64,000 nucleotides of DNA, from the NCBI GenBank assembly GCA_031271345.1, contig JAISVX010000001.1, positions 1 to 64,000 on the forward strand. The letters are read 5' to 3'. Below the pieces are notes generated by a model. It was not told the DNA's origin. It was given only the letters and a program-made list of their open reading frames with translations, and searched no databases. Both the position numbers and the translations under genes were made by a program. How positions within the stretch are numbered: position 1 is the first letter of the stretch; the number at the start of each line of letters is the position of its first letter. Below, in pieces: positions 7,829 to 39,843 of this stretch. The stretch comes from Lactobacillaceae bacterium. GTDB taxonomy: Bacteria > Pseudomonadota > Alphaproteobacteria > RF32 > CAG-239.

Positions 7829-7853
7829 AGCTGAAAAGTATAAGAGGATTGGC

Positions 7854-11980: not shown

Positions 11981-12069
11981 GATTTCAAAGGACTTTTTAA
12001 ACTAGTATTTTGTGCTATTAAGAAGTAAAATAGTTTAGATTATAATTGCCTTTGCTCGGGGACAGAGAT

Positions 12070-17150: not shown

Positions 17151-17180
17151 AAAAAAGAGGACATAATGTCCTCTTTTTTT
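17151..17180. terminator. Bidirectional terminator between convergent operons
   Basis: AAAAAAGAGGACAT and ATGTCCTCTTTTTT form a long stem with A and T runs on either side, placed exactly between the plus-strand unit ending at 17148 and virB11 on the minus strand. Confidence 0.9.
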
Positions 17181-18147
17181 ATGTTACTTCTGTAACAGCG
17201 CGCAGGTTGCCGTCACGATTTATCTGAACAACTCTGAGTTTCTGCCTCATCTCCTCCATTGTTTTTGCTCTGTCAATAGTCGGATAGCTGTGCAGAATAC
17301 GGTCTGTAAAGGCTTTATAAGCAGCTTCGGAACTTTCGGCGTGGATGGTTGCCAAACAGTTATCGTGACCAGACCCCATAAGCTCCCAAAGAGCGCCGGC
17401 ATTACTTGTCGAAATCTCGCCCCCGATAATTGCATCTGGTGTAAAACGCACGACCAAGTCGATAATCTTCGAATAGTTCAACTGGTTAGTCTGCTCTGTA
17501 CGCGATAGCACCAAGTGTACTCTGTTTTTATGAGGAACTATCAACTCTCTGGTATCCTCAATGGTTATAATTCTTTTATTTATATCAAGAATTTTTAATA
17601 AGTTATTCAAAAATGTTGTTTTACCTGTAGATGTCGCGCCGGAAACCAGTATATGGTCGCCCCTTTTAATGCTCAAAAGCAATCTTTCGTACGGATCTTC
17701 AGGCTCTTTAATATCTTTCAGCGGATTAATCTTATGCAGTTGCTTGCCCTGCTCTAATTTATAAGCGTCAAAACCAAAAGCGACATCATCGCTATGAATA
17801 CGAATCGTTAAAGCAACGCCGCCGGTCAAGTCTTCTTCATCATACATAACGTTCTTGCCAGCAATGCCGGAAAAACGATGCTCTCCAGGTATTGCGGCAT
17901 AAACTACCGGCGTTCCGCTGACAGGGTCGAATGGAAGCTCATACGTATTGGCAATAATATAAAGCAAATCCGTAAGATATTCTTTTGTCAGTTTTTCATC
18001 TCTGTACATTACCCACGGATATGCTCTTTTGCCTCTAAGTCTAAGCCAAATCTGTTTTGAACGGTCAATCGCAACCTCTTCTATATTCTCCTGGTTATAC
18101 CAGTAAGATAGAGGGCGTAAAACTGATTCTAAAACTTTAAAACTCAT
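17179..18147 (-). CDS. virB11: VirB11-type secretion ATPase
   Basis: A 322-residue hexameric traffic ATPase. Walker A G-A-T-S-T-G-K-T-T is at residues 170-178, the Asp box T-I-E-D-T-R-E-L follows, then P-D-A-I-I-G-G-E-I (Walker B region) and the His box G-H-D-N-C-L-A-T-I-H-A. Length, motif spacing and the TIEDT motif are those of VirB11 rather than the PilT-like DotB/TraJ of type IVB systems. In T4SSs VirB11 works with VirB4 at the inner membrane to switch between pilus assembly and transport. It is the last gene of the virB operon, as in the classical order, 13 bases behind virB10C; its stop codon overlaps the terminator. Confidence 0.9.
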   Translation of the reverse strand: MSFKVLESVLRPLSYWYNQENIEEVAIDRSKQIWLRLRGKRAYPWVMYRDEKLTKEYLTDLLYIIANTYELPFDPVSGTPVVYAAIPGEHRFSGIAGKNVMYDEEDLTGGVALTIRIHSDDVAFGFDAYKLEQGKQLHKINPLKDIKEPEDPYERLLLSIKRGDHILVSGATSTGKTTFLNNLLKILDINKRIITIEDTRELIVPHKNRVHLVLSRTEQTNQLNYSKIIDLVVRFTPDAIIGGEISTSNAGALWELMGSGHDNCLATIHAESSEAAYKAFTDRILHSYPTIDRAKTMEEMRQKLRVVQINRDGNLRAVTEVT

Positions 18148-18160
18148 TTCTATTTATCCC

Positions 18161-21100
18161 TTAGAATAATTGAGGAACACTTCCGCCAGAAGAAGACGAT
18201 GAAGAACTGCCGCTTGACGCCCCTGGTCTTTGCGTCGAGCTTGCGCCGCCAAATGAAGACGGTGGAGGCGGAGGTGGAGTGCTTCCTGCCGCAGGTTGTT
18301 TTCCAGCCGGCGCCGGGGCTGGGTCTAATAATGATGGACCCTGAGCTTGAACATCTGCGCTATCCGGCTCATAGACAACCGCACCGCTTGTGCCGCCGAC
18401 TGAGTTTCCGCTTACTTTCTTCCTAATCTCAACAGCCTGCTGATCTGCAACTGTTTCTTTATCATCAATGAATATATCTTTTTTGCTCATATTCGCAGCG
18501 CCTTCCAACTCATCTCTCTCAGCTGTTCTCAACCACAAATCCACATTTGGATAAATGATGATTCTGGTACCGGCTGGAACATAAGTCAGAGGTTTAATAT
18601 CCATTTTATCAGCCAAAACCTGATTGAATATCTCGGTCATTTTATCCAGGAAGTTTTGTCTTGCGTCGTTTGCCGCCTGCTGTTTTGGCGTCTCAGTCTC
18701 GCCGCTTGCATTGGAGTTTGGAGCCATGAGATATGCCGCCGCGCTTGTAAGCATTGTTGTAACAACAGGAAAAGTATATTTTTTAATCAACTGTTGGTCT
18801 AAGTATCCTAAAGCACCGCCGCGTCCTTGCGCGTCTCCGGTAATACCCTGGAATACGAAGATAGAGCCATCAGGTCTTATCAGCCTTTCCCAGTTAATCT
18901 GAACCTTAGCAGACGAAGTTGTCGCCTCGCCAGTTCCCGTTAAAGAACCAAGCACGCCGATAACACGGCTGCCTGCAGGGATAATGATATTGCGACCTTC
19001 TTCGGCATAAACGTTTCTCTCGACAATCGCCGTAACAGGAGTAGGGTTGCTGCTGTCAATAGATCTGGCAATAACCGCAGGAATTGGCTTATCAGCTAAT
19101 ATCATCTCGCTTAAATCAACACGCCATGAAGACAATGTTTTGCCAACGCCTTGCTCATCCCAGTTTGGCTGCGTACCTGTAAAGCTTGATATTTTAACAT
19201 TAGTGCTTATTTTGCCGACATTGATATTTTTTCTTCTTTCTTCCTGCGCCGCCGCTAATGCTGCCGCTCTTTGAGGATCATATCTTTCTCCAGGACCATA
19301 ACCGCCGCCAGGACCCAAGTTGCCGCCGGCTCCAGCGCCGATACCATAAGCCGCTCCCGGACCAAATGTGCCTGACGGAACAAAAATGTTGCCGCCAAAA
19401 TCAGCCTGAACAGATTCTTCAATACCGATTAGCCCGCCCTGATCGTCAATAATTAAGCCATCGCCCAGCCTAACGCCTAGAACATTACCCGCATCATCAA
19501 CCACCCTGCCGTCGTCAAGAATTCGACCTAAGTACTCTCCATCTGGAGTTAACGCAACCGCAAAAGATCTTTTTGCTCTTTCCTGAACATTTGGGTCAAT
19601 TATGCCGATTTCTATATCTCTGTCATTTCTTTTGGTTACTTTTGGCGCTCTTTCGTACCAGTCTGTTCCTATTCCGCCGATAATGTCGCCATTAGCGGAA
19701 ACAGCTAAACCGTTTTCGTTTAATAAGGCTATAATTTTGCCGTCTTCATTAACAACGCTGCCATCATCGCCGGCATAACCGATTACGCGGCCACCTTCGT
19801 CATATACAGGCTTAACCCCTATTGCTTTGCCATAGTACTGCAATGCGTTGGCGCGTCCGACTGTTTCGCCGTTTGCATCAGAAATTATACCATTGTCAGG
19901 ATTAATTTTGCCAATGGTCTTGCCGTTTGCATCCACTAAATCGCCAACCAGCGTCAATTCGCCGATTACGCTGTTTGTTTCGTTCCTTATATAAAAATCT
20001 CTATTGCCGCGAGATGAAACCTTGCCTGTTCTATCTATTACAAAACCTCTATCTATCTTACCAATGTTTTGACCGGATAATGAAAGCACGTTGCCGTCTC
20101 TTGCAATATATCCAACAACTATTCCCGCGTTGTCATATACATACAAATCATAAAGGGCATATCCGGATCTTTCTCCCTGAGAATTTACATAGCCATAAAA
20201 GTCTACTGTTCCCAAGTTTTTGCCACCAGAACCAAGAACGCTTCCATCTTCCAAGATAACGCCGATAAATTTGTTGCCGTTGTCAAATGCAAACTTGTAC
20301 TTAAATACGTTTCCAAGAGGAACTCCGCTTCCTGTATTGGCATTATCATTGCTTTGAACGTAGCCTGTGGAATTTCCATCATTGTTTATCAGCGAGCCGG
20401 TCAGACTGCTACGTCCGACAATGCTGCCGTTAAAATTGATTACCGGGTTGTTTGTTGCCTGATACGCTATAGTAACGCCGTCTGAATTTTTTAATATTCC
20501 CTTGTTGCTTACACAGCCTAAATTTTCTCCGCTATAATTTAAAACTTTGCCATCTGGAGATGTTATACCGAAGAAATTGCCGCTATTGTCGACAACAACG
20601 CTTCTTTTTACATAATGCCCTACATTTGAACCGCTGTCAGAAATTATCTGACCATTAAGCAGTGTTCTGCCGACGAAAATATCTTTTGCATTTCTAACGT
20701 CGCCTCTTGGTGTTATAACTCCCAAAAACTCGCAATCACTGCTTACGGCAACGCTATATGGAACAATCTCTCCCAAATAAGATCCATTATTATCAAGAAC
20801 AAGACCTCTTCCGATAACTTGTCCGACAATAGAGTTTGCGCTGTCTCTAACAATTCCGTTTATGCCTGCGTATCCTATGAAATTGCCGTTTGTTCCTAAA
20901 ACAATGTTTCCTTCATAAGACTGACCAATCTTCGGCATAAGATTCTTCGTATCTTCTTTTGATGTGCTTACAATTGTTCCATCGCTCAAAGCTTTACCTA
21001 TAATATCTTTCGAGCCGGTGAAAACAACGTTTGTATTTGATAAGTAAGCCGTGTCTTTGCTATTGTTTAGGGTTATAAAGTCAGACTGCAGCGTTTGACC

Positions 21101-22561
21101 TAAAACTCTGTTCTCATCATTGATATGAACGCCCACAGAAGTGATTTTTCCATTAAGCACGCTTCCTTTATTTACAATTTCCCCATTAGGAGACACTTCG
21201 GCAATGCCGACGCCGTCTAAATAAAGAGTTCCTGTATCAATGCTGTATCCCGAGATTTTTCCTTCCGGCGAAAAGATATAACCGAAAGGCGAAACTTTCG
21301 CTTTATCTTCGCCGCTACCGATAGACGCACTGGTATCAACAATTCCCAAAACATTATTGTTTAAATCGAGAGCAAGTCTGCCTTGCTCAACGCTGCCGAT
21401 TATTGCGCCTGATTTATTATAGGCATATTTGCCTTTCATGCCGCCAATTGTGGTGCCTTCAAACAGAACCACAGAGCCGTTTCTTTGAGCATGCGCAGTC
21501 AATATGCCTCGATAGTCAAAAATCGGACCGGCTTCGGAGCTTAAACCAATGACATTTCCACCCTTTACAACCAGACCTCTTGGCGCGGCAACTCCGATTT
21601 CTTCTTTTGCCTTTACAACTTTTCCTTCTGGAATTAAGCGACCGAGATATTTTCCGCTTAAATCCGTATATGTTGTAGCGAAATCAACCGAATATCCGAT
21701 AACCTTACCAGATAAATCAATAACATCGCCTGTGCTGTTTATGCGACCGATGAGCTGTTCTCTATGAACGACTTCGCCGTTGTAGTTTACGAAACCAAGA
21801 TATTTGCCATAATTATCAAAAGCATATCCTGCTGATACAATATGACCAATAACTTTTCCTTCCTGGTCATAAGCAAAACCATTTGCTTTTATCTTACCAA
21901 TTGCTTTTGCGTCAAAATCTGTTACATCGCCGCCTGGAGAAACGCTTCCGATAAATTCTCCGTTATTTGAAATAACCATTTTAGATGAAATCAGCCTTCC
22001 ATCCAAAACGTCATCGTTTCCAACTTTTCTATACGCGTAACCATCCGTTGAAATAAAACCAATTTTTTGACCTTGAAGGTTTGTATAGCTGCCGTCTCCC
22101 GTTAAGCGCCCAACTGTTTTTCCATCGTCGGAATAAATAAGACCAGGGAACAAAACAAAACCGATAACCTCGTAAAATTCGTCAACCACAAGACCGTTCG
22201 GAAGAGTTTTACCAATTATCTTGCCAGATGGAACGCGAACGGAACCGTCGTTATTTACCTTGCCAAGCGGCTTATTATCGTTGCCAATCGCAATACCTTG
22301 AGGAACTATACCGCCGATTAAATCTCCGTCAAAGTTGACGATTAAGCTGTCTGCGTTAATATTGCCGATTAGCTGGTTATCAAAGCTTACAACTTTACCA
22401 TCAGGAATTACTTTACCAATTAAATCGCCATTAAAGTCTATGGCGGTAATTTCCTGTGAAAAGGCTGGTTTGAAAGAGAGCAGTATGCAAACAGCCGCCA
22501 AAGATAAAACCTTTGATAGCTTATTGCATACCATATTATTTTTATTAAAATCTATTCTCAC
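18161..22561 (-). CDS. virB10: VirB10/TrbI C-terminal domain protein with giant repeat array (VirB10C)
   Basis: A 1466-residue exported protein. A signal peptide (ending F-S-Q, about residue 36) is followed by roughly sixty degenerate 17-residue units of the type I-G-x-V-x-x-D-G-x-V-V-D-x-x-G-N, up to about residue 1090. The C-terminal ~300 residues are the VirB10/TrbI beta-barrel domain (S-S-W-R-V-D; A-V-I-E-R-N-V-like region; I-I-P-A-G-S-R-V-I-G; I-I-Y-P-N-V-D-L-W-L), which lines the outer-membrane channel. A Pro/Ser/Gly-rich tail ends it. GTG 22561 follows the upstream stop directly with GGAGG in front. Normal VirB10 has an inner-membrane helix; here that lies in the preceding gene. Confidence 0.85.
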   Translation of the reverse strand: MRIDFNKNNMVCNKLSKVLSLAAVCILLSFKPAFSQEITAIDFNGDLIGKVIPDGKVVSFDNQLIGNINADSLIVNFDGDLIGGIVPQGIAIGNDNKPLGKVNNDGSVRVPSGKIIGKTLPNGLVVDEFYEVIGFVLFPGLIYSDDGKTVGRLTGDGSYTNLQGQKIGFISTDGYAYRKVGNDDVLDGRLISSKMVISNNGEFIGSVSPGGDVTDFDAKAIGKIKANGFAYDQEGKVIGHIVSAGYAFDNYGKYLGFVNYNGEVVHREQLIGRINSTGDVIDLSGKVIGYSVDFATTYTDLSGKYLGRLIPEGKVVKAKEEIGVAAPRGLVVKGGNVIGLSSEAGPIFDYRGILTAHAQRNGSVVLFEGTTIGGMKGKYAYNKSGAIIGSVEQGRLALDLNNNVLGIVDTSASIGSGEDKAKVSPFGYIFSPEGKISGYSIDTGTLYLDGVGIAEVSPNGEIVNKGSVLNGKITSVGVHINDENRVLGQTLQSDFITLNNSKDTAYLSNTNVVFTGSKDIIGKALSDGTIVSTSKEDTKNLMPKIGQSYEGNIVLGTNGNFIGYAGINGIVRDSANSIVGQVIGRGLVLDNNGSYLGEIVPYSVAVSSDCEFLGVITPRGDVRNAKDIFVGRTLLNGQIISDSGSNVGHYVKRSVVVDNSGNFFGITSPDGKVLNYSGENLGCVSNKGILKNSDGVTIAYQATNNPVINFNGSIVGRSSLTGSLINNDGNSTGYVQSNDNANTGSGVPLGNVFKYKFAFDNGNKFIGVILEDGSVLGSGGKNLGTVDFYGYVNSQGERSGYALYDLYVYDNAGIVVGYIARDGNVLSLSGQNIGKIDRGFVIDRTGKVSSRGNRDFYIRNETNSVIGELTLVGDLVDANGKTIGKINPDNGIISDANGETVGRANALQYYGKAIGVKPVYDEGGRVIGYAGDDGSVVNEDGKIIALLNENGLAVSANGDIIGGIGTDWYERAPKVTKRNDRDIEIGIIDPNVQERAKRSFAVALTPDGEYLGRILDDGRVVDDAGNVLGVRLGDGLIIDDQGGLIGIEESVQADFGGNIFVPSGTFGPGAAYGIGAGAGGNLGPGGGYGPGERYDPQRAAALAAAQEERRKNINVGKISTNVKISSFTGTQPNWDEQGVGKTLSSWRVDLSEMILADKPIPAVIARSIDSSNPTPVTAIVERNVYAEEGRNIIIPAGSRVIGVLGSLTGTGEATTSSAKVQINWERLIRPDGSIFVFQGITGDAQGRGGALGYLDQQLIKKYTFPVVTTMLTSAAAYLMAPNSNASGETETPKQQAANDARQNFLDKMTEIFNQVLADKMDIKPLTYVPAGTRIIIYPNVDLWLRTAERDELEGAANMSKKDIFIDDKETVADQQAVEIRKKVSGNSVGGTSGAVVYEPDSADVQAQGPSLLDPAPAPAGKQPAAGSTPPPPPPSSFGGASSTQRPGASSGSSSSSSSGGSVPQLF

Positions 22562-25500
22562 CTAGTTCCTCCGGTTTTTTGCTACTTCTTGTAATGCATA
22601 TCCTGATATTTTTTTATCTAAATCTACAAATGAACCATTGTTTTTAAGATACCCTATATTTCTTCCCTGCATATCGACAACCGTCCCATTTGGCGCTAAG
22701 CGTCCGATATATTTGCCGTCATTTCCAAGTATGGTAGCGCCGATTTTATATATTCTTCCTAAAATAGATTCATTGTTATCAATTGCCAATCCGCCAGAAA
22801 TATATCGACCAATCACGCTGCCGTCATCAGATATTATTCTGCCGTCAAAGCTCACATATCCCGCGAACTTATCGGCATTATCTATTACAATATCGCCGTC
22901 AATCAGTTCGCCGATAAGACGCCCGGAGTTGCTGATAACATTTCCGTCTGGAAGCATACGTCCAATCTCGACATTTGACGTATCTATAACTTTGCCGTCT
23001 GGAGCAACAGAACCGACAACATTTCCGCCAAAATCGCTTATTATGCCCCTTCGAAGAATGCTCATTCCTTTATCAGTCGAACCGCCAGGTAAAACAGCTG
23101 TGACAATGTCATTTTTCAAATCAATAACATCTCCCAATGAGTTCATGCGGCCTTTATAATTGCCCCAAATATCGGTAAGAATATTTTCAGAAATCACTTC
23201 TCCGATAATCGCATTGCCTGTATCAAGGATTTTACCGTCCGCAGTAACTACTCCCTGCTTTTTGCCTTCCAAATCGATTACCGAACCATCAGAAACCACA
23301 TACCCTATATATGAGCCGTCATAACCTATGGCAACGCCTCTGCGAACTACTGCGCCTCTGTATTCCCCCTTGGAAGAAAAGTGTTTGCCTTTGGCATCAA
23401 CCGTGCCTAAATTTTCGCCAAATTTGCTTATAACCGAACCATCATACGCTACCAAGCCAAGAGTTTTGCCGCTAAAGTCGACGACCTGTCCTTTTCGCAA
23501 TGGAGCGCCAGGCTGCCTGTTATAAAAGCTTAAACCGTCTCCGTGAATTTTTCCGATGGAAACCCCCTTATTATTATACGCGTTTCCGTCAGGGAAAATA
23601 TAACCTTGAATTTTTCCGCCAGCGTTTACGATAGGCGCCACTTCTTCTTCGGTAAAACCGATTATCTCGTTTTCACTATTTGCGACTATGCCGTTTATAA
23701 GAACTTTCGCATCTGGCTGACCCAAAGCAGGAACTTTTCCATTTTCTCCAACCATATTAATAAAGTTTCCATCCAAATCGTACGCATATTTATTTTCCGC
23801 AACTCTGCCGATATAACTTCCTGCTCTGTCAAAGACCTCTCCATATATGCCGACACATCCGATTGGAAGCATTGCTCCAGACATAATTAAATTATCCGAA
23901 GAGACCCTTCCCAAATAGTCTCCGTCATAAGACACCGCTATGCCTTCTTTCGCAACGGCTCCAACAATGTCGCCCCTTTCGTTCAACACTGTTCCGTCGG
24001 GGTTCAGACAGCCGACATAAGCGCCAGCCGCATTCTTTACAATGCCGTCAGTGCCTACTTCTCCAAGCAAAGTGCATGTATTGTCATACACTTTTCCAAT
24101 CTTTGCTATTCCGCCCGCATATCTTCCCGCATTGTCGTTAACAATACCATTAAACATAACTTTTAGACTTGTATCTTTGTTGCCTTTAACAATTTTTCCG
24201 TCTTTTTCTAAATATCCAAGATTTTTACAGCCATATCCGATAACCAGACCGCCTCTTATCAATTTGCCTATTACTTTAGCGCCGGAAGTATCTCTAATCA
24301 AACCGTTGGATAAAATTTTTCCTATAGTCTGTTTATCCGCGTTTTCAACAAAACCATTATTCAGCACTGTTCCAAGGATTTCGCCTTTTGGATTGATTGG
24401 AATTAATGACGTATCGACCAAAGAGCCTATTTTTCTGCGAACAGTGCTTATTATGTTGCCGTCCGCGTCTACAATACCGATAACGTTGCCGTTAAGATCA
24501 TAAACATTTCCGTCCTGACCGATAAAACCGATAATATTTCCATCAGCATCCAGTGCGAGAGAGACCAAATCTCCGGCCTTGCCTATTACATTGCCATTCG
24601 CGTCTACAAGCGTGCCGTCCTCAAGCATTTTCCCTATGATATTGCCGTTAAAGTCCACAACATTGCCGTTCTCATCAATATAACCTATAACATTGCCATT
24701 AGCGTCCAGCGCCAGTCTTCTTTGCATGCCCGCCGCACCTATTGTCTCGTCGACAACGACATCGCCGTTTTCATTTAAGTAACCGACAACATCGCCGTTA
24801 GTATCTACAACCGCGCCGTTAGGCATGACGACGCCCAACATGTTGCCGTTTTCATCTATGGCAACTCTGCCAGGCTTGGTTACGTGACCTATAACATTGC
24901 CAAACTCGTCAACAACTTCGCCATTGGCATTTACACGACCGATAATGTTGCCATCCAAGTCAACAACCGTTCCGTCAGGCATAACCCTGCCGATAATATT
25001 GCCGTCAGCGTCATATACATATCCCGCTTCTATCGCCCTGCCGATAACATTTCCCGCAAGGTCAACAACCGTTCCGTCCGGCAGTACTCTGCCGATGATA
25101 TTGCCATCCGCGTCAACAACCGTTCCGTCAGCGTTTACATAACCGATAACGTTGCCAAATTCATCAAGAACCAAGCGGCGGTTTTCGGCAACGCCGATAA
25201 TATTTCCGTCATTGTCAACTATAAGACCAGAGTTATTGACTCTGCCGATAATGTTGCCGTTAGCGTCTCGAACATAGCCATCGGCATCAATACTGCCCAG
25301 AAGTTCCCCATTTGGAGAAATGGCTCTTCTTTCGCTTGAAGTTGTCGCTGTTGCCGCGCCTGGAAGCGGCTCGCAGAAATTACAGTCTTCTCTTTTAACC
25401 GCGCTCCCGTCTACAGTTATCTTTTCTGATTTTGCATTACTTGCCGACAGATTTGTTTCATGCCATGTAATGATAAAATTATTTTGAACATTAATTGCGA

Positions 25501-25975
25501 CAATCGGCATCCATTCCATAGAAATATCGCAGGTTTCTTCGCCGCGCAAAGTTCTGTTGGTACAGCCGTCTTTGTATTCAAACCCGTCAAAAGGAGGTTC
25601 CGCAAGCCTAACGGATATAATTTTAATCGTCGCTTTTCCGTTTGTGCCTAATGTCAGAACATTTTTGGCATTTGTACCCAAAACAACCTGACCCATAACA
25701 ATAGGGTTGGGCGTTGCGGTAAGAGGGCTTTCTCTTTCGACTAAGTCGCCAAATTCAATTGTTGTATCTAAAGCATTGCCGGTATCCGTAAGAGACAGAG
25801 CATCATCATTTTCGGTAAACATCGGGTCTTCATATTCGTCCCCAACATCACCGCTGCTCAGCAACAGCAATACGCCTAATAAAAATAACATAAAAGAAAC
25901 TATACCAACCGCAAGAATTATGCGGTTGGTTTTTTTTACATAGTTCTCAGAATGTGTTAAAACTTCTTTACTCAT
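22562..25975 (-). CDS. VirB10-like N-terminal half: membrane anchor, Ig-like domain and repeat array (VirB10N)
   Basis: A 1137-residue protein encoded between virB9 and the VirB10 C-terminal gene. A short cytoplasmic segment and one membrane helix (about 17-41) give the VirB10 N-terminal topology. A periplasmic domain (about 70-190) resembles Ig-like choice-of-anchor/ASH domains (L-T-L-G-T-N-G-K-A; C-T-N-R-T-L-R-G-E-E-T-C). From about 215 to the end run some fifty 17-residue units such as N-V-I-G-Y-V-N-A-D-G-T-V-V-D. No VirB10 barrel is present. ATG overlaps the virB9 stop by 4 bases. It looks like the inner-membrane half of a divided VirB10; long repeats in VirB10 homologues are known from DotG and CagY. 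Confidence 0.65.
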   Translation of the reverse strand: MSKEVLTHSENYVKKTNRIILAVGIVSFMLFLLGVLLLLSSGDVGDEYEDPMFTENDDALSLTDTGNALDTTIEFGDLVERESPLTATPNPIVMGQVVLGTNAKNVLTLGTNGKATIKIISVRLAEPPFDGFEYKDGCTNRTLRGEETCDISMEWMPIVAINVQNNFIITWHETNLSASNAKSEKITVDGSAVKREDCNFCEPLPGAATATTSSERRAISPNGELLGSIDADGYVRDANGNIIGRVNNSGLIVDNDGNIIGVAENRRLVLDEFGNVIGYVNADGTVVDADGNIIGRVLPDGTVVDLAGNVIGRAIEAGYVYDADGNIIGRVMPDGTVVDLDGNIIGRVNANGEVVDEFGNVIGHVTKPGRVAIDENGNMLGVVMPNGAVVDTNGDVVGYLNENGDVVVDETIGAAGMQRRLALDANGNVIGYIDENGNVVDFNGNIIGKMLEDGTLVDANGNVIGKAGDLVSLALDADGNIIGFIGQDGNVYDLNGNVIGIVDADGNIISTVRRKIGSLVDTSLIPINPKGEILGTVLNNGFVENADKQTIGKILSNGLIRDTSGAKVIGKLIRGGLVIGYGCKNLGYLEKDGKIVKGNKDTSLKVMFNGIVNDNAGRYAGGIAKIGKVYDNTCTLLGEVGTDGIVKNAAGAYVGCLNPDGTVLNERGDIVGAVAKEGIAVSYDGDYLGRVSSDNLIMSGAMLPIGCVGIYGEVFDRAGSYIGRVAENKYAYDLDGNFINMVGENGKVPALGQPDAKVLINGIVANSENEIIGFTEEEVAPIVNAGGKIQGYIFPDGNAYNNKGVSIGKIHGDGLSFYNRQPGAPLRKGQVVDFSGKTLGLVAYDGSVISKFGENLGTVDAKGKHFSSKGEYRGAVVRRGVAIGYDGSYIGYVVSDGSVIDLEGKKQGVVTADGKILDTGNAIIGEVISENILTDIWGNYKGRMNSLGDVIDLKNDIVTAVLPGGSTDKGMSILRRGIISDFGGNVVGSVAPDGKVIDTSNVEIGRMLPDGNVISNSGRLIGELIDGDIVIDNADKFAGYVSFDGRIISDDGSVIGRYISGGLAIDNNESILGRIYKIGATILGNDGKYIGRLAPNGTVVDMQGRNIGYLKNNGSFVDLDKKISGYALQEVAKNRRN
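24355..25333 (-). repeat. Block of highly regular 51-bp coding repeats
   Basis: The first ~19 units of the VirB10N array are much more alike than the rest, at both protein level (G-N-I-I-G-R-V-x-P-D-G-T-V-V-D) and DNA level (recurring TTGCC.TC.GCGTC patterns at ~51-bp spacing). Units further along, and nearly all in VirB10C, are diverged. Confidence 0.75.
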
Positions 25976-27567
25976 TGGGTCCTAACTACACTACAAAATA
26001 CACCGTTTCTTCCAAGTCTGCTGCACACTCCGTCGCCTTCGTCAAGGGTTTTAACTGGTCCAATTCTTAAATGGAACAATTCTTTTCCTTGACCATCGGC
26101 TGGCGTATCAACAGAATAGAAGGGCTCATATAACGACAATATGTCCGAGTATCTATTTGATAAATCGTTCCATAATGTCTCTAAATTGTTAACATTGGCA
26201 TCTGTTCCAAGCTCGATGGATATGTTAGAGCCGGAATCTGCAAAACCCGCTCCATATCCGTATCTGCCGTCTAGTCCAGCTCCCGAACCAGCTCCTTGCG
26301 AACCTTGCGAACTTCCGCTAATTCTTTGCATTCTTGAATAATCCACACCATCAAACGCTCCGGCATTAGAAATATTGCCATAATCGGCTCCTATGCCGCC
26401 TCCGCCGCTGAATGAACCGTCAAATCCGCTGCCTGCGCCACCAGCGCCGCCGCTTCCCTGACCGCCAAATCTTCCGCCAGCGGCTCCGCCTGAACCGCCG
26501 TTAGCTCCGCCAGGAAGAGGAGGAGGAACGTCCCATGTCGCGTCTTCAAAATCTGTGGCATAAGTTTGCAGCTCCAGACCTTCCGCATCCGAACGACGCA
26601 TTTTCAAGCATATAATTCTTTTGCCGCTGCGAAGAACCATATCTCCAACGGCTTCAACGATTATAAGTCTGTTATTTGGACCAGTCGTTCTAAATCCGAC
26701 CGGAACTTCTATTCTTTCAACAATCAAAGTTACAATAGGTCTTTGAGTCATATTTAATGCTTTTTCACCCAAATCAATATAAGTGAAAATATCGTCTCTC
26801 CATACTCTTTCAGGAGCCATAACCACATCATCAGGGTTTGGAACATAAATCTCAATGTCAAATCTCATTTTTGAAGGATCTAAAGGAATATTTTTTATCC
26901 AGTCTGCTTTTTGAAATCTTTTTGTATATGTAGAATCTGCCGAGTGAGAAGACGAATTTTTAGTAAAATTTCCGCCGCCAGTCGAGCCACCTCCTCTGCC
27001 TGCGCCGCCGCTGCCGTTTGGAGCGTCAATAACATCAATATCGATGATTGAGTTTGTTAATCTTTCAGAGTTAACGCCTTCGCTTCTAACGTAAAACACA
27101 TAACGATTTCCCGAGCGTCCAAATATAATTATGTTGGTATCGACACCAACGTTTGAACCTCTTCTTGGATACAATAAAATTGTGTTCGGACCTGAAATTT
27201 GTCCGTCAAATGTAGCATTATCACCTATATAGATGTCTTCAACAAGTTCCCACTCCGGGAAGTTAACCAATGTGAGCATACCTTCGCGAAGACGAATTGG
27301 AAGCACCAAATCCTGGGACCAATAATATTTAGAATACGCCGGTTTTGATTGTCCTTCACCCAAATTCTGCAAAGGGTCAAGCCAAGCGCTCTGCGTCATA
27401 CCCAAAGAGTTAAAACCCGCATAACCCATATTCATCGGCATATAGTTACCCTGACTTTGATCTGCATTTTGGTCCAGATTGTCCATGCCTACTTGTGCAA
27501 AAGCAACATTTGAAACCGTCAGTACAAATGAAATGCACATTATTCTATTTATTATTTTTAAAACCAT
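25972..27567 (-). CDS. virB9: VirB9/TrbG-type core protein with C-terminal SPOR-like domain
   Basis: A 531-residue exported protein. ATG 27567 is preferred to GTG 27579, which sits on top of the AAGG site. Signal peptide to about residue 24 (A-F-A-Q). The N-terminal VirB9 domain has N-T-I-L-L-Y-P-R-R and N-R-Y-V-F-Y-V-R (about 130-170); the C-terminal VirB9 domain has P-E-R-V-W-R-D-D-I-F-T-Y-I-D (about 250) and N-R-L-I-I-V-E-A-V. A Gly-rich linker follows, and the final ~50 residues (F-H-L-R-I-G-P-V-K-T-L-D...L-G-R-N-G-V-F-C-S-V-V) match the SPOR peptidoglycan-binding pattern. VirB9 builds the outer-membrane ring with VirB7 and VirB10. The SPOR fusion is not part of the usual family. Confidence 0.82.
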   Translation of the reverse strand: MVLKIINRIMCISFVLTVSNVAFAQVGMDNLDQNADQSQGNYMPMNMGYAGFNSLGMTQSAWLDPLQNLGEGQSKPAYSKYYWSQDLVLPIRLREGMLTLVNFPEWELVEDIYIGDNATFDGQISGPNTILLYPRRGSNVGVDTNIIIFGRSGNRYVFYVRSEGVNSERLTNSIIDIDVIDAPNGSGGAGRGGGSTGGGNFTKNSSSHSADSTYTKRFQKADWIKNIPLDPSKMRFDIEIYVPNPDDVVMAPERVWRDDIFTYIDLGEKALNMTQRPIVTLIVERIEVPVGFRTTGPNNRLIIVEAVGDMVLRSGKRIICLKMRRSDAEGLELQTYATDFEDATWDVPPPLPGGANGGSGGAAGGRFGGQGSGGAGGAGSGFDGSFSGGGGIGADYGNISNAGAFDGVDYSRMQRISGSSQGSQGAGSGAGLDGRYGYGAGFADSGSNISIELGTDANVNNLETLWNDLSNRYSDILSLYEPFYSVDTPADGQGKELFHLRIGPVKTLDEGDGVCSRLGRNGVFCSVVRTQ

Positions 27568-27580
27568 TACTCTATACACC

Positions 27581-27727: not shown

Positions 27728-28456
27728 TTAATTGAGGTTTTGACGAGCTAACGAGTATTTAGCAACTGTAAAACCAACCGGGTTTTTCAATCTTTCAGTA
27801 TATTTTACCGTCTTGCGGCGGTAAGTAACCTGAAGAGATGCAGCCCAATAGTTTAGCTCTGGAGCCGTTGATGTCGGATACATATCCTGAGTTTCATACT
27901 CAACCTGCCATAAACCTCTGCTCAGCTCATTGACAGTGATAATCCTTATATCCCTTTTCAAGCTCCTTGTTCTAATAATATCTATTGCTCTTTTTGCCGT
28001 ATTATCTAAAAAGTCCGAATAAACGGTGGCGGATGACATTTCTTGTATTGGTCCTCCGGGAAGCCATCTGGCTTCCATTTCAGGAATGTCTGTGTCAAAA
28101 GTGCTGCGAAGAAGCACATATTGCCTGACAAAAACTTCCGTAATAGCTCTTTCATCTTCCAAAGAAGTATTTACAGGTACGATGTTGTATACCTGCTCCT
28201 GCTTATTTTTGAATGTTAATAAGAAAGGCTCTACTCTGAACAGAGGAACAATTTGACCGATAGCCAACAATAAAACTATATTACAGCACAAACTCAAAGC
28301 CGTAATAATTGCAAAAGCCCTTGCTGTCCATAAATATCTTTTTTCAGCAACGTTTTCTACAATGGTATCTTGATTTGACGTAGAAGGTTTAGGCTGCTTA
28401 GAGGCACCTCCAATAAGCTTTTGCTCCACGTTTGCTTTGTTTAATTGTTCTACCAT
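27728..28456 (-). CDS. virB8: VirB8-type assembly factor (paralogue b)
   Basis: A 242-residue bitopic inner-membrane protein. A cytoplasmic N-terminus (1-50) is followed by one membrane helix (about 52-74) and a periplasmic NTF2-like domain (to the end). VirB8 hallmarks: V-E-P-F-L-L after the helix, F-V-R-Q-Y-V-L-L-R (matching Y-V-x-x-R-E), and the terminal N-P-V-G-F-T-V-A-K-Y. VirB8 nucleates assembly of the core and channel. An AAGG site precedes the ATG. A second VirB8 is encoded upstream and a remnant of a third downstream. Confidence 0.87.
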   Translation of the reverse strand: MVEQLNKANVEQKLIGGASKQPKPSTSNQDTIVENVAEKRYLWTARAFAIITALSLCCNIVLLLAIGQIVPLFRVEPFLLTFKNKQEQVYNIVPVNTSLEDERAITEVFVRQYVLLRSTFDTDIPEMEARWLPGGPIQEMSSATVYSDFLDNTAKRAIDIIRTRSLKRDIRIITVNELSRGLWQVEYETQDMYPTSTAPELNYWAASLQVTYRRKTVKYTERLKNPVGFTVAKYSLARQNLN

Positions 28457-28470
28457 TAATATTTACCTTA

Positions 28471-28653
28471 TTAAATAGTTTCGACAAACCAATCAGGTAA
28501 ATCCTTTGGCAAATCTAACTGCATACATGCGCAAGGCGATAATTTTAATTCGTCGATACCTTTACCGATACCGATTGGTTCCGCCTCATAATAAGAACCA
28601 AAAAGACCGCAAGCCGAAAGCAGTAGAACAACTGCAACTATTATATATCTCAT
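28471..28653 (-). CDS. Small lipoprotein in the VirB7 position
   Basis: A 60-residue lipoprotein; ATG 28653 lies 8 bases from GGAG, while earlier in-frame starts at 28662 and 28659 sit against it. The signal ends in lipobox L-S-A-C (Cys about 15). The mature part has L-S-P-C-A-C-M-Q-L-D-L-P. Size, lipobox and placement between virB8 genes fit VirB7, which anchors VirB9 at the outer membrane, but small lipoproteins cannot be assigned by sequence alone. Confidence 0.6.
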   Translation of the reverse strand: MRYIIVAVVLLLSACGLFGSYYEAEPIGIGKGIDELKLSPCACMQLDLPKDLPDWFVETI

Positions 28654-28662
28654 AATCATCAC

Positions 28663-28863: not shown

Positions 28864-29625
28864 CTATACTTCGACCTCGGTCTGAGAATATCTTGTAACT
28901 GTAAAACCAAGAGGATTAAGCAGGCGCAGACCCAGAAAGCTTCGCTCTGGGATGAAATATGCCGTAACAGACGAGGTCCAATATCTGGTGTTTAAGATTA
29001 TGGCCCTGGTCTGAAGATCTCTTTGACCCTCCGAGATGTCGTAAGTCTTAAAGTCAATCTTCCAAACCGCGCTTTTCTCTCCACCGACTTTATTTATCGA
29101 AATAATCTCTACTTCCCGCGAAAGCTTGGCTTCAAAAATAAGATGCCAGACCTTCTCCCTGTATTGGTCGAAGCTTCCAAAAATTTCCGGCGACGAAAGA
29201 AAGTCGACCATGCCGCCGGGATACCATCTTGTCTGCATTTCTTTTTCATCGTCTATAATGGTGTTTCGCAATATTATGTACTGCTTTACAAATGTTTCCA
29301 TCAACATCTGTTTAGACGCCATGTCATAGCTTATAGGCTCGTTACGCACGATGCCCGCCGAGTTGTCCTGCCTGATGATTAGAAAAGGTTCAACGCTCAC
29401 CTGAGGAGCCAATTTAAATATGACCAGAGAAGCGCTGATAAAAAAGAGCAAAGATATAGCTGCCAGGAGTATAAAGAATCTCGACAGCCAAATATAGTAT
29501 ATAAGTTTTGACGACGTTACTTTCTTATAATCGCTAAGAAAGAACTTGCTCATATCTATATCGCTACCTATTCCCGGTAAGGATAGAATCTTTGTTCCTA
29601 ACAGCTTTTTATCTTGCTCTGCCAT
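28864..29625 (-). CDS. virB8: VirB8-type assembly factor (paralogue a)
   Basis: A 253-residue bitopic inner-membrane protein. ATG 29625 is chosen because AGAGGG lies 5 bases upstream; the longer frame overlaps the preceding gene. The membrane helix (about 45-68) follows a cytoplasmic segment. The periplasmic part has V-E-P-F-L-I, F-V-K-Q-Y-I-I-L-R and the terminal N-P-L-G-F-T-V-T-R-Y, the VirB8 signature. It differs enough from VirB8b to suggest an old duplication, so the two could occupy different positions in the machine. Confidence 0.86.
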   Translation of the reverse strand: MAEQDKKLLGTKILSLPGIGSDIDMSKFFLSDYKKVTSSKLIYYIWLSRFFILLAAISLLFFISASLVIFKLAPQVSVEPFLIIRQDNSAGIVRNEPISYDMASKQMLMETFVKQYIILRNTIIDDEKEMQTRWYPGGMVDFLSSPEIFGSFDQYREKVWHLIFEAKLSREVEIISINKVGGEKSAVWKIDFKTYDISEGQRDLQTRAIILNTRYWTSSVTAYFIPERSFLGLRLLNPLGFTVTRYSQTEVEV

Positions 29626-29636
29626 AAAAACCCTCT

Positions 29637-32600
29637 TTAATATGAAGCACAATAAGGAGCGCTTATTTTCTTCATTTCGTCTTCAAAAGCTTTCTCGGCT
29701 TCTTTATCATACGCTTCCTTAGCTTTTAAGTTTGCTTTTTCTGTCTTTATAGATTCACTTACATCACTAAGGTTAACATTTGATGAAGGAAGAGCGATAA
29801 GCACATCTGAATCCATCTCCAAAGCTTTATGCACCAGTTCAAAATTCTCGAGCCTTTCCTTGACAATAGGAGTGTTGTTTCTCTTAAGCGCCTGAAGCTT
29901 TGGAGCAACTTCGCTCATAACTCTTGCCTTTCTGTTCTTCAAAGAATTTTTCACCGTATTATAATCCTCTTCTTTTGCAAGATTCAAGTCTGGCGATGGT
30001 TCATAGCCAGCTTTGCGAAGCTCTTCGAACAACAGTTCTTTAACTTCATCAACGCTGATTTTTACCTTCTCCATTGCCTGACGATATGTTCTTTCCAGCT
30101 CGACATAATCTAAGAAATCGCCAAACTGGTTTTTCTTTAACGCCGCGTTGTCATAAATATCATCTTTAATGCTAGAATTATACTTCTTGTCTTCTTCCTG
30201 ATATTTTCTTATCTCAATCAAGCGGTCGAAAGTCTTTTTAACATCGTCTCTAAACACGACAAAGTCGTTGCCTAAAGTAAACAACTGACCAAGCTCGCTT
30301 ACAGAGCTTGTACCAGCAGATACTCCGGCTCCCGCATTCGCAGTTTCGTCAGAACCCTTGCTCTTAATTCTATAATAACCAACGCCGTTTGTTACTTCTA
30401 TTTCCTGACAAGAAGGAAGAGCATTATTACTAGAAGCTTTAACTATAAAGTTGGCATTCTTATCAATGTCTATTCCAAGGTTGTTGATATTACATGGATA
30501 ACGACCGCCCCTATAGAAGTTTGCGATATTATCCCCGTTTTCGTCCTCTCCAAAGAACTTCTTAAGATCAATGTCTCTTTCAACAAACGCTTTGCCGCTC
30601 AACGCGCGCTGCCACACCTCTGGAAGCTGTCCGCCATAATCGAGAAGACCTGACTTTGACACATAGTACATTGTTAAATATACTGGGACATTGATTGGAA
30701 GATTGCCAACCCCGATTTCTGTCTTTGTTCCAACTTGGATTTTGGTATTTTTATCTTTGCTGTAAACGCCTTCGTAGTCAACTTCATCAAAGAAGAACAC
30801 TTCTCTGACAGGAGGCAGATATTCGTTGATTGGTCCTTTCGGAGCCTGGAAATCTCTATCCTTAGCTGACAATGCGACATAGTATTCTTCATCCGCCGCA
30901 TAACAAGCGTCTTCAGGACATATTTGACTAATCATATATTTATTATACAAGTTCTTAATAGCCTCCATCAACGCTAAAGGAGAACCATAAGTGTTCTTCA
31001 AAACGCTGGAGAATGATAAAACATCTTCAAGGTCGATATTTTTCAAATTCTCAATAAGCGCAACGTGTTTTGAGTTAACATTTGCATTGCTTGTCTGATA
31101 ATATAATGAATCTCCAATATTTAAGATGTCTGCTTTTGTTTTTTCCGCAAGTTCGACAGTATATGGTCTAAACTCTGTAGAAATAGCAGCCGCGACATTT
31201 AGATAACCGCCTAAAGCCGGAGTATATGCTTTGGTTGCATCGCTGACCTTCTTAGCCACTTTATTATCATATAAGTAAGCAAGAGGCGCCATATCATCAT
31301 AACCCGGCTCCTTCTCCATTATTTCTTTAGCTTTTAAAGCATGCTCTCTTTCTGCTTCCGCAAGTTTGCCATCGTAATATTTGCTTCTTTCATCAAGTTT
31401 GGCAATAATTTTTTTCGCCTCTTTGCCCAAAGAAACAGCGATAGCTTTCTGAGCTTTTGCTTTTTTCTCCATATCCGCCTTATTTACAGTCGTGCTAAGA
31501 GTGTTTGTCATTTTCTCCTTTACTTCTATCTTTGCTTCTTCAGCCTTATTGATATTTTTATTATAAAGGTTTACCTTCTCCTGAGCCGCATCTATTTTAT
31601 CAGATAAGTCGTTTAACTGATTTTCATATCCTCTAAACTCCGCGGATCTTTGTTCATAGATAGCCGCGATTTTATCGCCATACGCATTAACCGCGTCAGA
31701 ATATTCTTTTCTAACTTTCTGAACTTCTTCAGCCTCGGTGTTTTGAGCGCTTAACAGTTCATTCTTGGTTTCGACAGTCCAAGCTTCCGTATACAGAACA
31801 CCTGTTAAGTCATAAGCATATCCGTTCAGCCATAATCTGTTTTCCGCTATATCCTTAATCTCATCGTCAACTTTCTTTATCTCAGCTTCAACTTCCATAA
31901 TCTGTTTTATAACGTTCGGTAATTGAGCTTGCTTAAGCAAATCAGTCATTTTCTTTACAAGCGCTTCTCTTTGCTTCTTTAATTTAACTTCGCGCGCATC
32001 TAACTCTTTATAGTTAGGCTGCATAGCAGATACTTTTTGCTGAACAGACTCAATCCACTTGCTTTCTTCAAGCGCAACCTCAGTAACTGGAGTTTGCTCC
32101 TGGAATCTTGCCAAATCCGAATTCCAATCCGTAAAGACCGATTTTGCGGAACCCTCAAAGTTTGCGACTATCTTGTCTTTATTATCTTTATTAAGCTGGC
32201 GGGCAATATCAAGTTCGCCGGGACGCAAATCAATCTGTTCCAAATATTTAATTATGTTGTCATATTTAGCATTGACATACTGGTCATAAAAGTTTTTCTG
32301 GTCGTTCCACATCTTAAACGGCTTATCAATACTGCCCCAGTTATTAATGCCCTGCTGGTCGTCTCCCAAGCTTCTTGACCCAGTCGCGCCAATATTCCAG
32401 GCAAGCTGATAGTTGTCTCTTCCAATCTGCTCGCTTTTTCTTTCTTTTACAGGGTTCATAATTTCTTCATCAGCAGGTTTTTTACCGTTCTTCATTGTTG
32501 AAGCGCTCATGGTGTTTTTATTATCAACGCTTGAATCTACAACAGGAGTTTGCAGTTCTTCAGGCTCCATTGGAGTAACCATCACCGCCTTCGCGACATC

Positions 32601-37410: not shown

Positions 37411-39843
37411 TTACGCAATATTTAAATATTTTGTAACAAAGTTGTCTTCGCCATATTCTCTAATCAATTCTTCAACCAAAAGAACGTTTTTACGACCCGA
37501 GTTATAAATCTTCAAATATGGTCCCAAACCGCCTAAATTGACGTCAATAATCACTGATTCGCCGGTTGCCGGTCTGGACAACAATATTGCATAAGGAAAC
37601 TCTCGGTAAGAACGACCATAAATAAAGTCTAACTCTCTGTCGGTTAAGTTCCAGTTTGAATAATCCTCTGGGGTTGCCTGCGGATTTCTAAAGAAAATTA
37701 CGGTTTGGCACTGACCGCGGATAACCTCGCCGACGCCAAGCTTGTCGATAATATTAGGCTGCTGGAAGGCGCACAGATATGCCTGACGTTTTTTACGACC
37801 CTCCTGAAGACCAATGATGAAATAGTCTCTAAACATCGGGTGCTTTAACATAGGAGCGGTCTCGTCAATCATAATAAGAGACGGAACGCCCGTTTCTCCC
37901 GTTTCAGACTGAATACGGTGCATGATATAGCTGATAACCGCCGGAGCCAATGTCTCGTCTTCAAAAATATGCGTAAAATCAAAAGCCATAAATCTCTTCA
38001 CGCTCAAATCCAGGCTGTCATTTTCAGAGTTAAAAATGTTGCCGTACTGATCCGGGTTAACCCATCTGTAAAGCTCGCGGCGCATGTTTCCCGTTGGAGA
38101 GAAACAGCTTTTATAAAGATTTTTCATAATTCTTTCTTCAGTGCGGAGATAGTCGAAAGCCGTTGTAACCGAACGACCGATTTCTTTTTCCGACTGAGCG
38201 TCATCCACCAGCGTAATCGCTTTTAGCCAGCGGCGTAAAAACGCGCGGTTATTCGGCGTATCTTTTGTATCAAACGGATTTAACGAAACGTTCTTTTCAT
38301 CGCCGTCAAAGCCCACATAAGCGCCCTGAACTGCGCGCGTAAAAATCTCGGCACCCCGGTGTCTGTCAAAGAAGAACACTTTCAAATCGCCGTGCCTCAT
38401 GGCCTGACCAGCCAAGAAAGTAAGCAAAGTTGTTTTACCCTGTCCGGTAGGTCCTATAATACAGCAGTGAGCAACCGCTGATTCTTCTGACGATACGTGG
38501 AATTGGAAATTATACGGAGAACCGGACGTTGTCCTAAACACTGAAATTGCCCCCGGACCCCAGTCGCTTTTTGTAAACCCTTCCGACGGTTTGTCAAAAG
38601 AAACCGCGGAAGCGACCACTCTTGATAAATATCTGTATGTGCGCGGATACGCCTCATAAGTTGGAAACTGATTAAAGAACGTAGCCTGAGCCACCCAGCC
38701 TTCTCTAACCGGCGTAACGCTGAACAAGCGGCAGATTCTCTGAACTTCGCTCTCCGCGAACTCTATTTCCTCATCGCTGTCGCCCTTCATAATCATCGTC
38801 ATGGCGTATTCTGTCAGAGACTGGTAATCCGCATCACTGTCTTCAATAGAGGACAATGCTATTCCATATTGCTCAACCACATCCGGAGAGAAACTTGTCA
38901 CCGCCGCCATTCTTTGCTGCTGCATTAATAAAGCTCTTGCTTTTGGCTTAAATATCGGACGCACGTTGTGCAGCAAAACCATCTCGCAGTCAATCGACAG
39001 GAGAGATACTATCATGTTTTCATCCATGTAGTCGCCGGAGCTTCTAATACCCATGGTAATGGCATATTTTTCCTGCTCTCCAGAGAAAAATGTAATAACG
39101 CCTTTTTCTCCCGTAAAATGGATATGATCAGACGTTAAAAGCTCGTTTAGCCTTGATCCTTCCGAGTTTCTGGCTTTTGGTTTTGGGTGCGAAATCGGAC
39201 TGCATAATTTAGAAAAAACAAAAATCGGACTGTCTTCCGCAGGGCTGTCCTCTGTTTCGTACATGGTTTTTACGCCATAGTCGTTTAGTGTTGCAAGAAG
39301 AGTCTGCGACGCATAGTTTAAATCTTTTAATGCGTCTGTACGGTCGGGAACAGATAAAACAACATAGTGTTTGTTCGAATATATTCTATCCAGGTTATAA
39401 CGCCAGGTCATAGAAATTTGCTCAAGCAGCGGATTGTTGAAGTTGTCTTCAACTTCTTCCATTTGAATCCTGTCTCTTGTCGTAATAACGCGGCAGACAA
39501 CCTGAAGGTCTGACATGCTGTCAATCCATGATTTTCTCGCTTCGCCCATGGACGCCGCTTTTTCGCCGGTGGCAAAAGACAAATCCATGCCTTCCACTTT
39601 AAACACTCTGACAAAAGAGCCGTCATGACAGCGGATTGTCATGCCGTCGGACATCAATTTACTAAAAGGCAAAAAGTCAGCCACTCGAGATTCCTGGGGC
39701 TGAGGCAATAATATACGGCCAAGTTTTGTTGCCCAAACACCCGCAAAAGCCGCTGCCGAAATAAAACCAATCAAAGCAACTAAAACTTCTACACTGGATA
39801 ACCCTTGTACAAATATATTAAAAAATTCAAAATCAGGGCGCAA
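37411..39843 (-). CDS. virB4: VirB4-type secretion ATPase
   Basis: An 810-residue ATPase, the usual VirB4 length. A membrane helix (about 18-37) precedes the CagE/TrbE N-terminal domain. Walker A G-P-T-G-Q-G-K-T-T is at 464-472, followed by the VirB4-specific F-F-F-D-R-H-R-G-A-E, and Walker B L-I-M-I-D-E-T-A-P. Later C-terminal motifs include A-F-Q-Q-P and R-G-Q-C-Q-T-V-I-F-F-R-N-P. VirB4 powers pilus assembly and transport. Its start overlaps virB3 by 11 bases. Length and motifs favour VirB4 over the longer DotO/IcmB of type IVB systems. Confidence 0.92.
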   Translation of the reverse strand: MRPDFEFFNIFVQGLSSVEVLVALIGFISAAAFAGVWATKLGRILLPQPQESRVADFLPFSKLMSDGMTIRCHDGSFVRVFKVEGMDLSFATGEKAASMGEARKSWIDSMSDLQVVCRVITTRDRIQMEEVEDNFNNPLLEQISMTWRYNLDRIYSNKHYVVLSVPDRTDALKDLNYASQTLLATLNDYGVKTMYETEDSPAEDSPIFVFSKLCSPISHPKPKARNSEGSRLNELLTSDHIHFTGEKGVITFFSGEQEKYAITMGIRSSGDYMDENMIVSLLSIDCEMVLLHNVRPIFKPKARALLMQQQRMAAVTSFSPDVVEQYGIALSSIEDSDADYQSLTEYAMTMIMKGDSDEEIEFAESEVQRICRLFSVTPVREGWVAQATFFNQFPTYEAYPRTYRYLSRVVASAVSFDKPSEGFTKSDWGPGAISVFRTTSGSPYNFQFHVSSEESAVAHCCIIGPTGQGKTTLLTFLAGQAMRHGDLKVFFFDRHRGAEIFTRAVQGAYVGFDGDEKNVSLNPFDTKDTPNNRAFLRRWLKAITLVDDAQSEKEIGRSVTTAFDYLRTEERIMKNLYKSCFSPTGNMRRELYRWVNPDQYGNIFNSENDSLDLSVKRFMAFDFTHIFEDETLAPAVISYIMHRIQSETGETGVPSLIMIDETAPMLKHPMFRDYFIIGLQEGRKKRQAYLCAFQQPNIIDKLGVGEVIRGQCQTVIFFRNPQATPEDYSNWNLTDRELDFIYGRSYREFPYAILLSRPATGESVIIDVNLGGLGPYLKIYNSGRKNVLLVEELIREYGEDNFVTKYLNIA

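Follow-up and report, generated by a model that had tools for sequence, protein, structure and literature searches.

Must the VirB10 protein of a type IV secretion system (T4SS) be a single chain? In known systems its C-terminal domain is embedded in the outer membrane and its helix lies in the inner membrane (PMC6362355), and a 2025 review (PMC12857230) describes it as the only subunit bridging both complexes; a second review of that year (PMC12624023) likewise has VirB10 spanning the two membranes. The question is raised by a gene pair on contig JAISVX010000001.1 (assembly GCA_031271345.1), of which the first 64,000 nucleotides were analysed (hereafter the window). The initial annotation had proposed that VirB10 is divided here into two adjacent genes, called A and B in the following. 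This was borne out: both open reading frames (ORFs) are in place, and relatives exist in which the N-terminus of A and the barrel are united in one protein. We consider it probable that a single VirB10 was parted by one ancient fission into A and B, its two halves, which are held together by a non-covalent joint in the periplasm. The pair and its parts are as follows.

22562..25975, minus strand: gene A ('VirB10-N'), 1137 amino acids, read as the inner-membrane half of VirB10 from its ORF and N-terminal profile
25856..25954, minus strand: predicted membrane helix of A, residues 8-40 (AlphaFold2), behind a very short cytoplasmic end
25397..25726, minus strand: predicted Ig/ASH-like periplasmic domain of A, about residues 84-193, after Pfam ASH matches in relatives
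22592..25333, minus strand: beta-flower array of A, about residues 215-1128 (~915 residues); Bflower_2 7.3e-70, period 17, predicted local distance difference test (pLDDT) mostly 80-94
22568..22572, minus strand: GGAGG ribosome site of B, within the last codons of A (K-N-R-R-N-stop) and 6 nucleotides before the GTG
18161..22561, minus strand: gene B ('VirB10-C'), 1466 amino acids, read as the outer-membrane half of VirB10 from its ORF and TrbI match
22457..22561, minus strand: signal-peptide-like leader of B, residues 1-35, with probable cleavage between AFS and QEITA
19337..22456, minus strand: beta-flower array of B, about residues 36-1075 (~1040 residues); Bflower_2 2.9e-44 in 11 stretches, period 17
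18530..19102, minus strand: VirB10/TrbI C-terminal barrel domain of B (PF03743)

Gene A runs from an ATG at 25975 to a TAG at 22564-22562 and encodes a membrane helix, an ASH/Ig-like domain and the repeats, with no barrel, in line with the annotated layout. The 15-residue hydropathy of the helix was at least 2.46 in 100 of 100 A proteins. Pfam ASH, at about residues 88-165, was matched in 12 of 15 A-family members (best E 4.9e-6); the window copy, at 0.0028, falls under the cut-off, and the AlphaFold2 model of A has low confidence across this domain. Gene B starts with a GTG at 22561 and encodes a signal-peptide-like leader, repeats and, at its end, a TrbI barrel domain. The TrbI match (residues 1154-1344, E 1.1e-34) is over the cut-off and places the barrel in the VirB10/TrbI family, and the relatives of the B end among PDB sequences include ComB10 (4e-19), CagY (5.9e-8), TraF, TrwE and VirB10. 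An h-region with small residues at -3/-1, followed by the conserved mature start E-I-T-A-x-D-F, was present in 76 of 76 distinct B proteins, and a hydropathy scan of the B repeats revealed no second long hydrophobic segment. The description of B as a barrel protein with a predicted signal peptide and no membrane anchor is retained. No full-length VirB10 was found elsewhere in the host genome (1.5 Mb in five contigs; completeness 99.8% by the tool's estimate), where a TrbI search returned a single match, in B. The gene order virB9-A-B-virB11, a VirB10-family neighbourhood, was seen in the window and in most loci with flanks read.

At the window junction, the GTG of B directly follows the TAG of A in the same frame, so a simple in-frame stop would be conceivable from this junction taken by itself. 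A frameshift had been dismissed earlier on the grounds that B has its own GGAGG and signal peptide; the ribosome site and the leader are indeed there, but it is the relatives that settle the matter. Among 153 genomes searched from the order, which we take to be RF32, 121 had TrbI and 117 the A N-terminus. The carriers are metagenome genomes named uncultured Alphaproteobacteria, uncultured Azospirillum or Azospirillum sp. CAG:239, many of them from rumen, caecum, colon or faeces. Across 74 distinct junctions, B starts -1 to +6 nucleotides from the A stop, with one exception at +19, and a GGAGG or AGGAGG lies within the last codons of A in 65. The relative frames of A and B are distributed as 15/29/30, all three being used, and consequently neither read-through nor one shared frameshift would yield a fusion at most junctions. 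The C-terminal end of A, K-N-R-R-N, is conserved and is encoded by the nucleotides that also hold the ribosome site of B. At every junction read in the order, the inner-membrane helix is on A and the barrel on B, and no fused A-B ORF was found among the loci read from the 153 genomes. Two TrbI-matching open frames of more than 24,000 amino acids were runs of N, not fused genes. The second family of the order (G031) is likewise split; across 16 genera the gene pair stays conserved, as do the gene order, the layout of the junction and the last residues of A, with no re-fusion seen. The split is old and not a recent break; fused genes occur in other families of the class and in none of the loci read in the order, leaving no recently broken fusion among close relatives.

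The profile of the A N-terminus finds matches in those other families as well, at the N-termini of VirB10 proteins that are single fused chains. Seven genomes (G033, G052, G103, G219, G313, G321 and G398) hold one ORF each that comprises the A N-terminus, a flower array and the barrel, with lengths of 1273, 2831, 2348, 2521, 2149, 2216 and 2193 amino acids. These giants resemble the A/B pair in their A-type N-terminus, repeat family and barrel, and differ from it in being encoded by one gene (1273-2831 amino acids) with no internal signal peptide: one N-terminal helix (hydropathy about 3.0 or more) is followed by no internal segment above about 2.0 and by no internal leader. Because these relatives carry the A N-terminus and the barrel in one gene, A is identified from sequence as part of VirB10, and its N-terminus as the VirB10 N-terminus. 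What an accidental break looks like is illustrated by G230 (L176 4602-6371 and 1-4605), where a fused-type VirB10 is broken by a frameshift within a repeat, through either a real mutation or an assembly error, and no leader follows the break. A phylogenetic tree of the A N-terminus and barrel placed the 75 split rows in one clade (SH-aLRT, an approximate likelihood-ratio support, 93), apart from the fused rows. As the split occurs in one order only, and VirB10 outside it is as a rule encoded by a single gene, one fission at or before the base of the order is the simplest and most likely history. The reading of A and B as the halves of one protein, parted by ancient fission, appears largely right. 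The repeat order of B also matches that of the fused G321 protein over ~560 residues, scoring 219 bits where none of 12 permuted controls exceeded 117.

Several observations weigh against this history or the joint built on it. The fused rows are partly long-branched and their placement in the tree is unsure. B gave no clear in-order match to the other fused proteins relative to permuted controls, and the repeats of A could not be aligned in order with those of the fused relatives, as they allow many equal placements; fission in place is thus favoured by parsimony, not traced. The model of the C-terminal 660 residues of B is poor, with pLDDT mostly <50 in the barrel part, so that the barrel fold of B rests on its sequence. 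That the two proteins meet by way of their arrays is an inference. With the same model, a fold search returned TrwE/VirB10 as the top match, a weak one (E 0.049), and two helices of this low-confidence model (model residues 444-473 and 486-515) occupy the position expected for the outer-membrane-crossing antenna.

Two further kinds of protein were met in the comparison. Other families of the class have short VirB10 proteins (505-608 amino acids; L059 3446-5038 in G041, L062 9208-11034 in G050 and L178 3760-5277 in G149) with a lipobox, L-T-A-C-G or L-A-S-C-G, instead of the membrane helix. Two of these three match the A-type N-terminal profile, and such proteins may lack an inner-membrane span. 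In three genomes (G336, G411 and G145; L179, L180 and L181), the matches to the A profile are secreted proteins with two Ig/ASH-like stretches (by eye) and no barrel match, perhaps another secretion-linked periplasmic protein.

Most of A and of B consists of repeats. The unit is ~17 residues long, with glycine spacing peaking at 17, 34 and 51; glycine pairs at lag 17 numbered 88 in A and 72 in B, against maxima of 41 and 43 across 500 shuffles. Bflower_2 scored 232 bits for A and 150 bits for B against a curated cut-off of 38, which assigns the unit to the 5-fold and 4-fold beta-flower families of Pfam (PF21785/PF21784). In the host genome, beta-flower repeats were found in A and B only. The claim that both genes are filled with units of this length therefore stands, but the tidy form I-G-x-V-x-x-D-G-x-V-V-D holds for part of A only; further along A, and in most of B, the units are diverged versions. 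The flower fold is a closed shallow barrel; its short strands number 8, 10 or 12 in the published description, where the type example has 96 residues (PMC10584680). The arrays share with PF21784/PF21785, of the clan of Tubby C-terminal domains, the repeat unit and a profile score over the cut-off, and differ from the domains as described in forming long uninterrupted arrays within a secretion machine.

Structure prediction fared differently for the two halves, the repeats of A being well modelled and the barrel part of B not. The AlphaFold2 model of A is all-beta, with a predicted template modelling score (pTM) of 0.69 and short strands with pLDDT mostly 80-94 for residues 220-1130, and the array is therefore probably a stiff body. 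Closed flowers set in a row and a single continuous coil are both possible forms of it. A fold search of the PDB with the A repeats gave nothing convincing (best Z 4.9 over 48 residues, a sialidase). The YD/RHS profiles matched weakly (RHS_repeat 1.3e-13 over one stretch; YD_repeat_2x 1.8e-14), and the Foldseek list for the A repeats was headed by teneurin and Tc shells, but with template modelling (TM) scores of 0.06-0.08; in view of these matches, a shell-like coil is possible. Array length is very variable among relatives, B reaching 2101 amino acids (L054 8946-15251, G028) and A 2092 to 2734 amino acids in some genera (array-length variants in L033, L055 and L043), with neighbouring genes constant in size.

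The pair can be set beside the known machines. With the VirB10/TrbI/ComB10 proteins of type IVA systems (TraF of pKM101, TrwE of R388, ComB10) it shares the TrbI barrel, the position between virB9 and virB11, and a helix and periplasmic stretch (in A); it differs in carrying the helix on one protein and the barrel on another, and in having beta-flower arrays of about 915 and 1040 residues as its periplasmic stretch. In the VirB10/TrbI family, about 14 copies form a ring together with VirB7 and VirB9. CagY of H. pylori and DotG/IcmE of Legionella likewise have a large repeat region between the membrane helix and the VirB10 barrel, but are single chains, unlike A and B. The repeats of CagY and DotG are not known as beta-flower repeats. 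The DotG repeats have been proposed to form a periplasmic channel (PMC6362355). We see in the split VirB10 a variation on an established machine rather than a machine of another kind. In the open-access literature, including a word search of two 2025 reviews and with most subscription papers outside its scope, no report of a split VirB10 was found, and no T4SS paper on this order.

If A and B are halves of one VirB10, the machine could work as follows. A would be anchored in the inner membrane by its helix, together with the inner-membrane complex, and its rigid beta-flower array would reach into the periplasm. B would be secreted through its predicted signal peptide, which would have been gained at the break when a giant fused VirB10 split; its barrel would join VirB9 and the VirB7-like lipoprotein in the core ring of the outer membrane, its array pointing downwards. 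The arrays of A and B, or one array and a partner such as VirB9, would meet in the periplasm, and the bridge between the membranes would be a non-covalent joint instead of a single VirB10 chain. Because the ribosome site of B lies within the end of A, ribosomes completing A probably go on to translate B, and the output of the two would stay coupled.

With VirB10 made as two separate proteins, a covalent single-chain bridge is impossible in this order. The stronger proposal, that throughout the order no single chain joins the membranes, interlocking beta-flower arrays couple the parts, and signals, force and copy number all cross a reversible joint, is tentative and falls a little short of an even chance. 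The split breaks a stated rule on a central T4SS protein, and does so in a conserved way. An order that has long lived with a two-piece VirB10 provides a natural test of whether assembly, energy sensing and gating depend on a covalent bridge. In R388, according to a 2025 review (PMC12624023), the layers of a single machine contain 14, 16, 12 and 2x6 copies of VirB10. As these numbers differ between layers, separate halves may ease assembly; with two proteins the conflict of copy number, and with it the symmetry mismatch, would vanish. Likely consequences would be that inner and outer copy numbers are free to differ and that the outer core can form with no inner-membrane part tethered to it.

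A milder view accepts that the halves cooperate and takes the split for a mechanically meaningless accident of long ago that drift has preserved. It concerns function and is compatible with fission as the origin. Fused relatives with giant arrays do exist, and any functional role of the split is inferred, but the retention of the gene pair, its order, the junction design and the A end across 16 genera, together with the split G031 family and the lack of any re-fusion, makes this view rather unlikely.

The most serious rival to A and B as two halves is that B alone is a complete VirB10, its uncleaved leader serving as the inner-membrane anchor and A being an accessory protein that keeps the old N-terminus. 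B holds repeats and a barrel like a fused VirB10, and its leaders are hydrophobic, with 15-residue hydropathy from 1.5 up and a median of 2.13. However, these values are typically below those of the A helix and of the fused proteins; each of the 76 leaders, judged by motif, has small residues at its end, just ahead of the conserved mature start; and the fused relatives bear the N-terminus of A, not that of B. We regard this rival as improbable. A similarly small chance is left for a tandem duplication of a whole fused VirB10, after which one copy lost its barrel and the other its membrane helix. A and B are adjacent with repeats of one kind, and an in-order alignment of the window's B to A scored 192 bits, where none of 12 permuted controls exceeded 152. 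In the other 11 of 12 B proteins, by contrast, the native A order did no better than permuted orders, and the two arrays thus show no clear in-register paralogy; there is no remnant barrel in A and no membrane helix past the leader in B. A recent in-frame nonsense mutation (TAG) of a fused gene, or an assembly error in this genome, as the TAG followed at once by an in-frame GTG might suggest, has practically no chance given 74 distinct junctions in relatives, split in all three frames with signal-peptide-like leaders.

The split VirB10 lies in a minus-strand run of two virB8 genes, a small lipoprotein gene, virB9, A, B and virB11, with three virB6-like genes and a virB4-like gene near the cluster.

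17179..18147, minus strand: virB11 homologue (ATPase), directly after B; T2SSE 1.2e-20
25972..27579, minus strand: virB9 homologue, CagX/VirB9 family 2.5e-10; its stop overlaps the A start (ATGA)
27728..28456, minus strand: virB8 homologue, first of two; PF04335 2e-21
28471..28662, minus strand: small lipoprotein, candidate VirB7 by sequence (lipobox LSAC) and position between the virB8 genes
28864..29652, minus strand: virB8 homologue, second of two; PF04335 7.4e-13
37411..39843, minus strand: virB4-like ATPase; CagE_TrbE_VirB 6.1e-9

The top NCBIfam match of the virB11 homologue was VirB11 (8.6e-42), under the VirB11 cut-off. A Dot/Icm identity (DotG/DotH/DotI/DotB) suggested by gene order was rejected: the best families were VirB8, VirB9/CagX, TrbI and VirB11, and DotB reached just 0.0022. 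The A N-terminus had no match among 72,556 plasmid records, two VirD4-like genes lie elsewhere in the host genome, and no PF03432 relaxase, the only relaxase family searched for, was found in that genome. On these grounds the system looks chromosomal and is possibly protein-exporting.

Some features of the surrounding genes were also recorded. The C-terminal stretch of the VirB9 homologue (25972-27579) resembles a peptidoglycan-binding SPOR domain, at 20.7 bits just under the cut-off of 21. The two virB8 homologues differ from each other, and such a pair is present in most relatives with flanks read. A 983-residue protein encoded at 7821-10772 has a peptidase M23 domain (1.1e-19) and a weak VirB6/TrbL-like stretch, and is possibly a wall-cutting VirB6. 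Beside the cluster, on the plus strand, 12046-14553 encodes an 835-residue protein with many acidic repeats of the E-W-E-Y-V-E-E type.
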